This document shows, one piece after another, positions 45,630 through 48,680 of a DNA stretch of 48,680 nt. Both the position numbers and the translations under genes were made by a program. The notes beneath the pieces were generated by a model. That model made no database searches and was not told the DNA's origin. It saw only the letters and a program-made list of their open reading frames with translations. Position 1 is the first letter of the stretch, and every line of letters starts with the position of its first letter. Location: the NCBI GenBank assembly GCA_013178225.1, contig JABLXE010000016.1, positions 1 through 48,680 of the forward strand, written 5' to 3'. The DNA comes from Methanotrichaceae archaeon (GTDB taxonomy: Archaea; Halobacteriota; Methanosarcinia; Methanotrichales; Methanotrichaceae).

Positions 45630-45728
45630 GCCGAGGTCGTCTAGCGGTAGGGCGCCAGCCTGGAGTGAAATCTCCTGGAAAGCTGGTGACTCGCAAGGGT
45701 CTCGTGAGTTCGAATCTCACCCTCGGCG
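45630..45728 (+). tRNA. tRNA-Ser(GGA) with a 15-nt intron
   Basis: Class II tRNA of 99 bases as transcribed. The acceptor stem GCCGAGG (45630-45636) pairs with CCTCGGC (45721-45727), followed by discriminator G. The T-arm is GTGAG-TTCGAAT-CTCAC. The long variable arm GACTC-GCAA-GGGTC, the GTCT/GGGC D-stem and the G discriminator identify serine. The anticodon stem CCAGC/GCTGG encloses 22 bases instead of seven; splicing out 15 gives a loop C-T-GGA-x-A. A 4-bp GGAG/CTCC helix inside recalls a relaxed bulge-helix-bulge. The exact splice points are uncertain because CTGGA is duplicated. It is likely transcribed with the cbf5 operon, and a T-run follows. Confidence 0.85.
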
Positions 45729-45750
45729 TTTTGTTACCCGTAAGAACGGG
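45729..45750 (+). terminator. T-run and small hairpin after the tRNA
   Basis: TTTT (45729-45732) follows the tRNA directly, and CCCGT (45737-45741) pairs with ACGGG (45746-45750) around AAGA. Together they could end the long ribosomal transcript. Confidence 0.45.
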
Positions 45751-45800
45751 CACCAGGAAAGCGATTTAAGCTGATAAAATAGATCACAGTCATCTTCAGT

Positions 45801-46028
45801 TCACCAAACGGGATGACCGGGAAGCACCAGGGGGGCCCTACAAGGGTCCTCTTCGTTTCCTGTCTTCTTTGAGGATTCTATTTCTATTCCCTCTTCTTGG
45901 AAGTAACGCCGCAGAGCAGCATCGATTACAAGGCTTGCGCCTCTTAGTTTCCCAAATTTCTTCAATGCGGTTTCACGTAGCGTTCTTGCCAGGTCCTCGT
46001 CAATAACAATGTTCATTCGTTCTGGCAT
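45801..46028 (-). CDS. Ribbon-helix-helix-like regulator
   Basis: 75-residue protein with an N-terminal beta strand (MNIVIDEDL), a helix (LARTLRETALKKFG) and a second helix (ASLVIDAALRRYFQEEG), the layout of RHH/CopG-type DNA-binding proteins. A charged or disordered tail follows. AGGAT just before ATG 46028 serves as ribosome site. It diverges from the small-gene operon at 46121 and could repress it. No toxin partner is seen beside it. Confidence 0.6.
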   Translation of the reverse strand: MPERMNIVIDEDLARTLRETALKKFGKLRGASLVIDAALRRYFQEEGIEIESSKKTGNEEDPCRAPLVLPGHPVW

Positions 46029-46120
46029 ACTATCCTGTTATCTCTTTTTGCATTAATACATTTCTACACCAAAACCCATAAATACAAATTTGTGTGTATA
46101 TGTGTATTGGTGAACTGAAG

Positions 46121-46489
46121 ATGTCCGGAAGGACTGTTTTGGAAGTAGTTAGCCCGGTCACGCAGACCGCGGAAGCCGTAAAGCAGTTGATAGCCTACTA
46201 TAACCACGGCCAGCAGCCAGCGGAGATGCCGCCTTTCTTCAGGCTCTCCGCTGAGATGGTCCTGGTGCGGAATAACAAAGGCGATGCCTATTATGTGACC
46301 ACGCCCCGGGATTGCTCCTGCCCTGCCAAGTGCTACAATCCCGGGAAGCCCTGCAAGCATCAGCGCAAGTACTTCCCTGTCGCGAAGATGGAGAGGCCAC
46401 AGGAAGAGCCGAGCCTGATAAGCAGACAGCCCTTCAAGCCCTTCCTGGAGTCAGATAGTGGACGGCAGCAGAGAGCGGAGGTGGTCTGA
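46121..46489 (+). CDS. SWIM zinc-finger protein
   Basis: 122-residue protein. Residues 58-85 match a SWIM zinc finger: Y-Y-V-x-x-P-x-D-C-S-C ... C-K-H, i.e. CxC (65, 67) then CxH (78, 80), with an extra cysteine at 71. The N-terminal part is a helix/strand region and the C-terminus is polar. ATG 46121 is chosen over GTG 46094 because GGTGA lies seven bases upstream. SWIM domains bind DNA or protein and occur in transposases, MULE-type proteins and some viral proteins. It is the first gene of a tight run of small genes. Confidence 0.75.
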   Translation: MSGRTVLEVVSPVTQTAEAVKQLIAYYNHGQQPAEMPPFFRLSAEMVLVRNNKGDAYYVTTPRDCSCPAKCYNPGKPCKHQRKYFPVAKMERPQEEPSLISRQPFKPFLESDSGRQQRAEVV

Positions 46490-46490
46490 G

Positions 46491-46574
46491 ATGGCTGCCG
46501 AAATTTTTTTGGTGCTCTTCTCGGGTGAAATAACTGCATTCGTGGCCATAGTGCTGAGCAAGATGGTGATCTAG
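46491..46574 (+). CDS. 27-residue single-helix membrane microprotein
   Basis: The product begins MAAEIFLVLFSG and ends VLSKMVI: almost one hydrophobic helix. GGAGGTGG precedes the ATG by about six bases, stronger than at most genes here. It starts one base after the SWIM stop, and the next gene follows its stop directly, so co-translation is very likely. A role in membrane binding or lysis is inference. Confidence 0.65.
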   Translation: MAAEIFLVLFSGEITAFVAIVLSKMVI

Positions 46575-46757
46575 ATGGCCGAGTCTAAAGAAGTCCATCA
46601 CGTGCACGATCAGCCAATAAAAGTGATTCTGCAGACCACGAAAAGCGGTTATAAGTGGGAGATCACGGTTCAAGGATCGACCACGGCAGCGATCATGCCA
46701 GTGCTTCGCGAGACTAACGAAAAACTTAAGAGAGAGTATGGGAAAGGGGGTGCCTGA
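46575..46757 (+). CDS. Small unknown protein (60 residues)
   Basis: The N-terminus is histidine-rich (EVHHVHDQP); a strand pair (IKVILQTTKSGYKWEITVQG) and an amphipathic helix (AAIMPVLRETNEKLKREYGKG) follow, resembling a small alpha/beta adaptor. I do not recognise the family. It begins at the base after the previous stop codon. Confidence 0.6.
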   Translation: MAESKEVHHVHDQPIKVILQTTKSGYKWEITVQGSTTAAIMPVLRETNEKLKREYGKGGA

Positions 46758-46759
46758 AG

Positions 46760-46870
46760 ATGGCCCTCCGCAACCTCATTTTGCTCAGAATCAAACAGAA
46801 CCGGGAAGCTGGCAACGAGGAACGAGCCCGCAAGCTTGAGGCTGCCCTGGCCCACTTGGAGGGGTCCTGA
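46760..46870 (+). CDS. Small unknown protein (36 residues)
   Basis: A short helical product beginning ALRNLILLRIKQNREAGNEE and ending AALAHLEGS. GGGGGTG precedes the ATG by about six bases. It starts three bases after the previous stop and shares the A of TGATG with the next gene. Confidence 0.5.
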   Translation: MALRNLILLRIKQNREAGNEERARKLEAALAHLEGS

Positions 46871-46980
46871 TGCCCCACTCTGGCCGGATGAGGATTCGTA
46901 GGGATCGGCGGGCTGTGGCTGATAGGCGGCACGTGGTCAGGCGATGGAGACAGGCCATAATCCTGTCAACTCTTTTTTAG
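46870..46980 (+). CDS. Small arginine-rich protein (36 residues)
   Basis: About one third of residues are arginine (RMRIRRDRRAVADRRHVVRRW), so nucleic-acid binding is plausible. Its ATG overlaps the previous TGA, with GGAGGGG upstream. Not recognised. Confidence 0.45.
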   Translation: MPHSGRMRIRRDRRAVADRRHVVRRWRQAIILSTLF

Positions 46981-46992
46981 GAGGGCTCAAAG

Positions 46993-47658
46993 ATGCAAGA
47001 GCCGTCTATTTTAGCGGAAGCCATCGAGATACCTGTCTCCGAGTTCCAGCATGTCCTGGAGGTTGCTGTGGATCTTTTCAACTACACGGCCGAGATCGCC
47101 AGGGACGCCGGTATCCTCCGCGGCCGAGAACTTGCCAATCTGGTCACGAGGGCCACAGAGGCCATCAAGGCCACTCACAGCCCCATGGAGAAGCTTCATC
47201 TCATTATTGCCTACATCCGCCAGATTCTCACCAGGATTTGCGAAGCCTTGAAGGCCAGACCTCCCGCCTCTCCAGCTGCTGAGGGTAAGATCCGCCAGGC
47301 TATCACCAAGATTCAGTTGAGGGCCCAGGCCCTGGTGGAGCACATCACGGTGATTGCTGTGGGCAAGAAGGAGATTGCTTTCAACTCCTGCCAGGCGCGG
47401 CAGTTCCTGGCAGGCAGGGAAGGCAGGCCACCATCACGGAGGGACACCATAAGGGCTCTGAGGAGAGCCGAGAGGCTTTGCCCTGCCCTGGTCTGCAACC
47501 ACACGCCCAACGATGGCAGGCAGACCATGAGGCTCACAGGCCGGGCCGAGGACCTGCAGGGTGCGGGGATCGCTCATGAAGACCTAGACCGTGACAGAAG
47601 GCAACGGTTGAGGATGGAGGAGGCCAGGATTATTTTCTTCAAGGAGGGTGCGTTTTAA
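46993..47658 (+). CDS. Unknown helical protein (221 residues)
   Basis: I do not recognise it. The N-terminal 100 residues are strongly helical (FQHVLEVAVDLFNYTAEIARD, LHLIIAYIRQILTRICEALKA), a proline/alanine linker follows, then a second helical segment and a basic C-terminal part with cysteines (RAERLCPALVCNHTPNDGR) ending in DRDRRQRLRMEEARIIFF. GGAGGG precedes the ATG by seven bases, after a 12-base gap from the small genes. A DNA-binding or structural role in a mobile element is possible but not shown. Confidence 0.65.
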   Translation: MQEPSILAEAIEIPVSEFQHVLEVAVDLFNYTAEIARDAGILRGRELANLVTRATEAIKATHSPMEKLHLIIAYIRQILTRICEALKARPPASPAAEGKIRQAITKIQLRAQALVEHITVIAVGKKEIAFNSCQARQFLAGREGRPPSRRDTIRALRRAERLCPALVCNHTPNDGRQTMRLTGRAEDLQGAGIAHEDLDRDRRQRLRMEEARIIFFKEGAF

Positions 47659-48084
47659 AGGCAGCAATGCCCTAAGTTGTGCATTAAAATTATTTAAATC
47701 CAATAAGTAAATTAGATATTTTGCTATGCTTAGCTTTAGCTATATCGACTGATCGGGTCGTGATCTATTATAATAGCTGACGAATATTATTCTTGAAGGT
47801 GGATGGATATTCTCTCCGGACCGTTGCCAAGGGAAACGATAGAGGTTATGTCATTCCGCTGACAGAGGCACGTCCATCCCGGCCATCTGGGACAGAAGCA
47901 GGATCATAGCCGCGCCCCAGGCTGAGCGCTCCGAGGAATATCCGCCAGGGCCCGTACGTCGTCCCCCACGCGCCCCAGGTAGGCCTTGGCGGGCAGGGTT
48001 ATCAGGGTTCTGATGAAGCCGGCGAGTCAGAAAAGGATGTGGATGGAGGCAGCCGGGTTGGCGGGCATGTTTTCCCTGATTAAT
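47659..48084. other. Intergenic region with decayed gene
   Basis: No intact gene is visible. The left part (47690-47800) is A/T-rich with TATA-like sequences; the right part holds the relic listed separately. No RNA gene or direct repeat is apparent. Confidence 0.5.
47841..48068 (-). pseudogene. Decayed gene fragment
   Basis: Read on the minus strand, a frame from ATG 48068 is interrupted by TGA at 48029-48027 yet continues in protein-like sequence (FIRTLITLPAKAYLGRVGDD). It then appears to shift frame into GRRTGPGGYSSERSAWGAAM and LLLSQMAGMDVPLSAE before a stop. One in-frame stop plus one frameshift in GC-rich, codon-like DNA indicate a relic. The GxxxxxxxAWGAA pattern recalls sugar-kinase C-termini, but this is too short to assign. 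Confidence 0.55.
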
Positions 48085-48450
48085 TTAAGTCGCATTTATA
48101 AGTTTGGAAGTGCTTCTGATGAGTTGCCGCGTGAGATCTCGTTCGAACTCTCTTGATAAAGCGCACGGCAATGTACGAACGATATGCCTGGCTATGGCAA
48201 CAATTGGATTCAATAAGCCATTTGTAGCTTTAACTGCCGGAGATCGGATTGGCGAGAAGAATAATACGAACTCCAGTACAAAGAATGCCAATACTGCAAT
48301 GATGCCTATTTCGTAGGACAGCCCGAGCTGAAGACAGACCCAAACTATTGCTCCGCCGATAAGAGATAAGACAAACGCGTAGATGCCAAATGCTACTAAG
48401 GTAAGCAAGACCATCCAACCCGATGTCCTTTGCTTGTCTTGTTGTTTCAC
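48085..48450 (-). CDS. Unknown two-helix membrane protein (121 residues)
   Basis: A short polar N-terminus, then two membrane helices (about 12-40 and 47-68) separated by a few residues, and a basic cytosolic C-terminal half (RTLPCALSREFERDLTRQ). The GTG start at 48450 is supported by GGAGTGAT five to six bases upstream. Not recognised. It is oriented toward the relic and away from the gene at 48646. Confidence 0.6.
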   Translation of the reverse strand: MKQQDKQRTSGWMVLLTLVAFGIYAFVLSLIGGAIVWVCLQLGLSYEIGIIAVLAFFVLEFVLFFSPIRSPAVKATNGLLNPIVAIARHIVRTLPCALSREFERDLTRQLIRSTSKLINAT

Positions 48451-48645
48451 CCAGCATCACTCCACATGTCTAGTTTACTAATCTACTCCACTATACAATA
48501 CTAGTATAATACTCTATACTTAACTCATTTACGGTCCATTTTTGATTACATCGGGCAGTGTAACTATTTGTCTGTAATTTGATAATAAGGAAGATATAGG
48601 CCCTGCATCCTATCCTGTATTTGGCACAAAGGAGGAAACAGGACC

Positions 48646-48680
48646 ATGATACCCTTAGAACTGCTAGAAGATTACCTTAT
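48646..48680 (+). CDS. Start of a gene cut by the window edge
   Basis: Eleven whole codons (MIPLELLEDYL) run to the edge from ATG 48646, with GGAGG at 48631-48635 and GGACC next to it. The family cannot be told. A/T-rich DNA (48480-48600) upstream could hold its promoter; 48451-48645 shows no other gene. Confidence 0.5.
   Translation, partial: MIPLELLEDYL

Follow-up and report, generated by a model that had tools for sequence, protein, structure and literature searches.

A covarying leader/anti-leader pair suggests that an archaeal, satellite-like element integrated at tRNA genes may be clamped against read-through transcription

Protection from transcription entering from outside is known for bacterial insertion sequences, IS50 among them. 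For the transposases of IS10/Tn10 and IS200 it is cited in PMC2965389 (from Davis, Simons and Kleckner 1985; Beuzon et al. 1999). A sequence near the end of these elements would sequester the ribosome-binding site only in transcripts started outside, and by analogy this is the nearest known mechanism to the one proposed here. In the locus described below, the complement of the ribosome-binding site of a gene for a SWIM-type protein, P1, likewise lies outside the gene's own transcript and towards the element end, if the transcript start is placed from the spacing of the TATA box. In contrast to IS10 and IS200, the gene that would be protected is not the transposase of a bacterial insertion sequence but P1 of an archaeal element integrated at a tRNA gene; the partner sequence is separated from it by ~300 nt and by a divergent regulator gene, and its clamp function is predicted. 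The integrase of these tRNA elements is encoded at the end opposite P1.

The elements themselves invite comparison with virus satellites. Integrated archaeal elements without capsid genes have already been proposed to be satellites (Makarova et al. 2014, PMC4158269). Those elements resemble ours in being flanked by tRNA genes and direct repeats, in carrying an integrase at the far end and a primase-polymerase, and in the apparent absence of capsid genes, whereas in that text "SWIM" and "terminase" have 0 occurrences each and neither the RHH/SWIM/P6 module described below nor the leader clamp was found in it. With the PICI-like and P4-like phage satellites our elements have in common a size of ~14-16 kb, an integrase, a replication gene of their own, a terminase, variable cargo that includes defence genes and, to judge from one capsid candidate, the lack of a recognisable capsid gene; they differ in having archaeal hosts, in the tape-measure-like genes of some members and in that no shared regulatory genes are known. 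A literature search that covered few subscription papers returned no report of this element family or of the clamp.

The window, that is, the whole stretch of 48,680 nucleotides analysed, is the entire contig C8 of the source genome (G000), a Methanotrichaceae archaeon, and it ends 1.0 kb past a block of small frames at 46121-47658. A preliminary description had reported six such frames on one strand, a tRNA-Ser gene ahead of them and an RHH-like regulator divergently upstream. All six are present with the sizes and spacings given there; the tRNA gene is tRNA-Ser(GGA) with a 15-nt intron, and the regulator corresponds to a frame on the minus strand (P7), the best family match of which, VapB, is weak and below the cut-off (E=0.072). 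An Rfam search of the window matched the tRNA alone. The features are as follows.

45630-45728, plus strand: tRNA-Ser(GGA) gene, interrupted by an intron of 15 nt; target of integration, with its 3' end as the attachment core
45713-45728, plus strand: attL core AATCTCACCCTCGGCG; its partner, with one mismatch, lies at C1:300530-300545 beside an integrase gene
45734-45743, no strand assigned: palindrome TTACCCGTAA, found just within both the left end and the C1 end; may be an arm site for the integrase
45789-45817, plus strand: stem-loop holding the anti-leader copy, with the anti-SD CACCA in or near the apical loop
45791-45807, plus strand: anti-leader copy CATCTTCAGTTCACCAA; its 17 nt are perfectly complementary to the leader and start codon of P1
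45801-46028, minus strand: P7, RHH-like regulator, 75 aa, divergent, with a 7-nt overlap with the anti-leader copy
46078-46085, plus strand: TATA box of the P1 promoter; its spacing places the transcription start at about the TTGG of the leader
46107-46123, plus strand: P1 leader TTGGTGAACTGAAGATG, from ribosome-binding site to start codon, complementary to 45791-45807
46121-46489, plus strand: P1, 122 aa, zinc-finger protein of SWIM type; opens the operon
46491-46574, plus strand: 27-aa frame, doubtful gene, no homologue found
46575-46757, plus strand: P3, 60 aa, homologues in three other elements
46760-46870, plus strand: first 36-aa frame, doubtful gene, no homologue found
46870-46980, plus strand: P5, 36 aa, Arg-rich, kept beside P6, dN/dS 0.16
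46993-47658, plus strand: P6, 221 aa, predicted to be helical in its N-terminal part, with a winged helix at the C-terminal end; dN/dS 0.08 relative to the twin copy
47600-47609, plus strand: box GGCAACGGTT within the P6 3' end
47764-47840, plus strand: conserved AT-rich non-coding stretch, ending in the inverted box GACCGTTGCC (47819-47828)
47841-48680, no strand assigned: beginning of the variable cargo, truncated where the contig stops; the element would continue at C1:300546-314087

The count of six genes holds for four of the frames. P1, P5 and P6 are under purifying selection relative to a twin copy on contig C28 of the same genome (dN/dS 0.27, 0.16 and 0.08), and P3 has homologues in several loci, whereas the 27-aa and first 36-aa frames are probably not genes, because they have no homologue in any related locus and no alignment with the twin copy. 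The SWIM zinc finger ascribed to the first protein stands as a motif, CxC-x10-CxH, with C65, C67, C78 and H80 invariant in 15 homologues, but not as a family assignment, P1 having no match to the Pfam SWIM model at E<=1. For P7, reading it as an RHH/VapB antitoxin found neither a PADLOC match nor a recognisable toxin-like neighbour; more generally, a toxin-antitoxin or defence system was considered and set aside, the window proteins being without PADLOC or NCBIfam matches. Short direct repeats containing GTG occur between the TATA box and the leader in some elements (e.g. window 46086-46107) and may possibly be the operator of the RHH protein. The AlphaFold2 model of P6 (mean pLDDT 76) is helical in its N-terminal part and forms a winged helix at the C-terminal end; a fold search gave weak winged-helix matches only, none at E<=0.001, and no sequence relative of P6 was found in the PDB. 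The main-type elements that bear P6 carry one pair of inverted boxes, GGCAACGGTC/GACCGTTGCC, which stand ~220 bp apart and enclose AT-rich DNA at the 3' end of P6; the pair is absent from the corresponding place in elements with a divergent P6 or none. The AT-rich non-coding stretch itself (47764-47840) is common to the elements and to a full virus, L039. We infer that P6 may bind at the boxes, which would then be a candidate origin, partition or packaging site.

The block is not a set of core genes that all related methanogens keep away from tRNA genes: of 100 relatives, 17 have P1 and 13 have P6, and these belong to a single family. In named public records, P1 is found in metagenome-assembled genomes of Methanothrix/Methanosaeta, in a few apparently mis-binned contigs and in IMG/VR contigs, mostly of 13-17 kb. 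Relatives of P1 under the record titles Parabacteroides, Nanosynbacter and "bacterium" (L139, L141, L145) are probably such mis-binned contigs. Origin by integration of a virus or plasmid at a tRNA gene, as first proposed, is borne out by the other tRNA genes of the relatives, where the P1 module lies directly 3' of eight different isodecoders, tRNA-Ser(GGA), Ser(GCT), Ser(TGA), Gly(GCC), Gly(TCC), Glu(CTC), Leu(CAG) and Met(CAT), and by complete relatives with an integrase and repeats of 14-16 nt. A further module, outside these eight, lies behind tRNA-Pro(GGG), with P1 ~1 kb away and the inverted copy of its leader absent. Immediately downstream of the tRNA, the Ser, Gly and Glu sites begin with similar bases. 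P1 is co-directional with the tRNA and points away from it in each of the 18 cases tallied; leakage from the tRNA promoter would therefore always enter in the sense direction. Comparison of module-less tRNA-Ser sites of relatives with the window junction gave only a 21-bp match of tRNA end and flank, because the downstream flanks are not conserved. Palindromes resembling TTAC(n)GTAA follow directly on tRNA-Ser(GGA) in many module-less relatives (L061-L079), which suggests that elements may have integrated at this site and been lost from it repeatedly. A deletion derivative of ~450 bp adjoins tRNA-Ser(TGA) in one relative (L032, G001:C29, 9445-9919); none of its genes is intact, but both the left end and the right site remain, as does the C-terminus of P6.

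The block appears to be the end of a longer structure. In Methanothrix/Methanosaeta, its relatives are whole elements of 14-31 kb bounded by repeats of the tRNA 3' end, which encode integrase, replication proteins and, in most cases, terminase proteins; such attL/attR direct repeats were found in C28, L081, L100 and L101 as well as in the window with its partner on contig C1. Three of these (L081, L100 and L101) are complete at 13.8-16.2 kb, with the tRNA at one end and a 14-15-nt repeat of its 3' end and an integrase at the other; the L081 integrase matches Phage_integrase at E=3e-26 and its homologues on C28 and C1 are 62-76% identical. Their gene content includes Phage_integrase and a TerS-like protein, and the terminase is divided between two genes; an NrS-1-like primase-polymerase (L081), PolA, TerS-like and TerL genes occur among the complete relatives, and tape-measure-like proteins are encoded in L100, in the G038 element (L099) and in the C1 part. 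Near the integrase end of L101 (1592-2066), adjacent frames of 84 and 75 aa resemble by eye a HicB/HicA pair, with no PADLOC match. The twin in the source genome runs for 30.6 kb from tRNA-Gly (C28:19560) to a 16-bp repeat at C28:50155-50170 (L119, L120). Between its P6 site and TerL it holds a complete type I-B CRISPR-Cas system (Csa1, Cas4, Cas2 by eye, Cas1, Cas8b/Cst1, Cas7, Cas5 and Cas3) with an array of 74 repeats, the spacers of which matched no foreign target among all the loci gathered.

No second copy of the tRNA 3'-end repeat was found within the window, because its partner is on contig C1: the core lies at C1:300530-300545, followed at 301106-302017 by an integrase 76% identical to that of L081, and TTACCCGTAA stands beside the core at both the C8 and the C1 ends. 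Contig C1 ends at 314087, inside the element, as does C8. That the window's element is split over C8 and C1, with a length of at least 16.5 kb, is something we infer rather than observe, since no read joins the contigs and no sequence overlap between their ends was found. The block would thus be the attL-side module of an element running past the contig end, and not the self-contained six-gene cargo system that had been envisioned; of the suggestion that it is the remains of an integrated virus or plasmid, the origin in a mobile element stands but the remnant state is not clear, the element continuing beyond the contig. The gene relic reported to flank it was not recovered, as 47841-48680 has no translated match in any related locus. 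One could still envision a stand-alone relic or a mobile unit of ~2.1 kb, the C1 segment stemming from another event, given that DNA similarity between loci falls at ~47840 and that deleted forms keeping both ends are known (L032, ~450 bp). However, the border at ~47840 is interior in the complete elements, for which reason a stand-alone 2-kb unit ending at 47840 was rejected; the C28 twin runs on to TerL, the integrase and an attR 30.6 kb away, and the C1 end has the matching att core and the same TTACCCGTAA arm without a left end of its own. We regard this smaller unit as very unlikely.

A virus contig of 43.8 kb (L039) and several proviruses have TerL, P6 and the non-coding P6 site in common with the elements, and carry a capsid candidate in addition. 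No homologue of that one candidate was found in G000, G035 or G038, a search that could miss other capsid types, and with no capsid recognised the elements look like virus satellites. The assembled part of the element in the window yielded no TerL. Mobilisation by a helper is hinted at, suggestively only, by the TerL and P6 site that they share with L039. In related viruses (L026, L029, L039, L096), unrelated proteins and micro-ORFs begin with a common peptide, roughly M..IALA.INSFAS, which is possibly a shared start-site element.

The central observation concerns the start of P1. Positions 45791-45807 are the exact complement of 46107-46123, which span the P1 ribosome-binding site and start codon. 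This inverted copy lies ~300 nt upstream of the P1 leader, between the tRNA and the RHH gene, and the version of the pair differs element by element. Among 10 core elements, complementarity between left end and P1 start scored 14.6 within and 7.0 between elements (permutation p <=5e-6), with shuffle maxima of 9-12. With the copies hand-trimmed to a common length, one row (G001c) re-registered by hand and the best match taken as the register of each element, which inflates the paired percentage somewhat, a 14-pair helix over 18 elements had 99.2% paired cells against 71.1% when shuffled, 66 cells changed on both sides against 16.9 +/- 3.2, and a covariation of 0.757 against 0.173; slid registers were all <46% paired. 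The shuffle and cross-element controls show that the inflation is small. The copy was present in loci that had no part in forming the idea (L087, L089, L091, L084, L098, L086 and L027, and more weakly L054), usually at 280-325 nt, and in nine IMG/VR contigs (L147, L148, L149, L151, L152, L154, L155, L157 and L158). The covarying pair is seen in more than 25 elements; the copy is absent from the more distant P1 loci L030, L045, L088, L090, L153, L156, L159 and L160. Since some contigs with the copy have no visible tRNA, read-through from a tRNA is not its only context. In L086 and L151 it lies ~200 nt upstream of P1, and in L086 it follows directly on an integrase gene of the same strand, for which reason a clamp may act against any upstream promoter.

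Of the internal mismatches at 29 loci, 8 leave G.U on the mRNA strand, none is of the mirror type (p=0.004 for the comparison of these two classes) and 4 are transversions. This bias points to RNA pairing, because a DNA operator or an invertible repeat would favour neither strand, and selection for pairing between leader and anti-leader RNA is strongly supported by the comparison of sequences. The two copies could otherwise be taken for DNA operators of the RHH protein that co-evolve with repressor specificity, as immunity groups do: one of them overlaps the predicted P1 transcription start, the RHH gene sits between them, and they match within elements while differing between elements. The 8 to 0 strand-specific transitions do not fit, nor do the L086 copies, which have no RHH gene between them, or a match bounded by the ribosome-binding site and the start codon, and we think such operators quite unlikely. 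Inversion of the segment with the RHH gene and promoters, as a phase-variation switch for P1, would account for inverted repeats of 13-17 nt that are near-identical within each element; yet the RHH gene was never found in the opposite orientation among the loci examined and the G.U mismatches would be unexpected, which makes a switch of this kind extremely improbable.

A closer competitor keeps the RNA pairing and places it in trans. The left copy might lie within a discrete antisense RNA, such as a tRNA 3'-trailer or another small RNA of the plus strand, which would bind in trans to P1 mRNA from the gene's own promoter and maintain the integrated state. The local fold of the left copy is a stem-loop that exposes the anti-ribosome-binding sequence at or close to its loop, the complementarity runs from the predicted start site to the start codon and stops at the predicted transcription start, and the G.U bias is on the plus strand, all of which would suit such an RNA. 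However, the hairpin was not seen to be followed by a terminator-like run of T, a separate promoter could not be identified, and a spacing of ~300 nt permits pairing in cis as well. We consider action in trans rather unlikely.

The best reading, in our judgement, is a clamp that would block translation of the SWIM protein from tRNA read-through transcripts. In an alignment of 27 loci, a TATA box precedes TTGGTG at a nearly constant distance, and this spacing suggests that the transcript from P1's own promoter starts at the ribosome-binding site, ~14 nt before the start codon. The RHH protein, a putative repressor, would face an operon that extends from P1 to the winged-helix protein P6 and the putative P6 site. 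Transcripts leaking into the element from the co-directional tRNA gene, or from another upstream gene, would first cross the stem-loop with the exact complement of the P1 leader and then the RHH gene in antisense; on reaching P1, their ribosome-binding site and start codon would be locked in a duplex of 13-17 bp, and P1 would not be made. Transcripts from P1's own promoter would lack the complement and be translatable, and P1 may be the switch to excision or replication. Predicted folding is consistent with this scheme, the ribosome-binding site and start codon being 1-18% unpaired in read-through RNA vs 36-72% in own-promoter RNA; in G034 the ribosome-binding site is buried mostly by other pairs. 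Taken as a whole, it seems to us fairly probable, if well short of certain, that the block represents the early module at the tRNA-proximal (attL) end of a virus-satellite-like element at tRNA-Ser(GGA), with P1 clamped against read-through.

It is tempting to speculate further that this archaeal virus-satellite family senses or neutralises its integrated state by RNA: leakage from the tRNA would supply an RNA able to stop the element's SWIM activator from being translated, whether in cis or in trans, and so would couple tRNA-gene activity to dormancy. We offer this wider view tentatively, as possible though on the unlikely side. The elements are candidate satellites of Methanothrix viruses, and the complete CRISPR-Cas system in one element of the source genome would extend to methanogens the bacterial pattern of satellites that carry defence genes. 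Integration behind tRNA genes is common among archaeal elements and, to our knowledge, how they avoid activation by the strong tRNA promoter has not previously been addressed. The covarying leader/anti-leader pair would provide a concrete, testable answer to this problem and, as far as we have found, the first example in archaea at the level of RNA.
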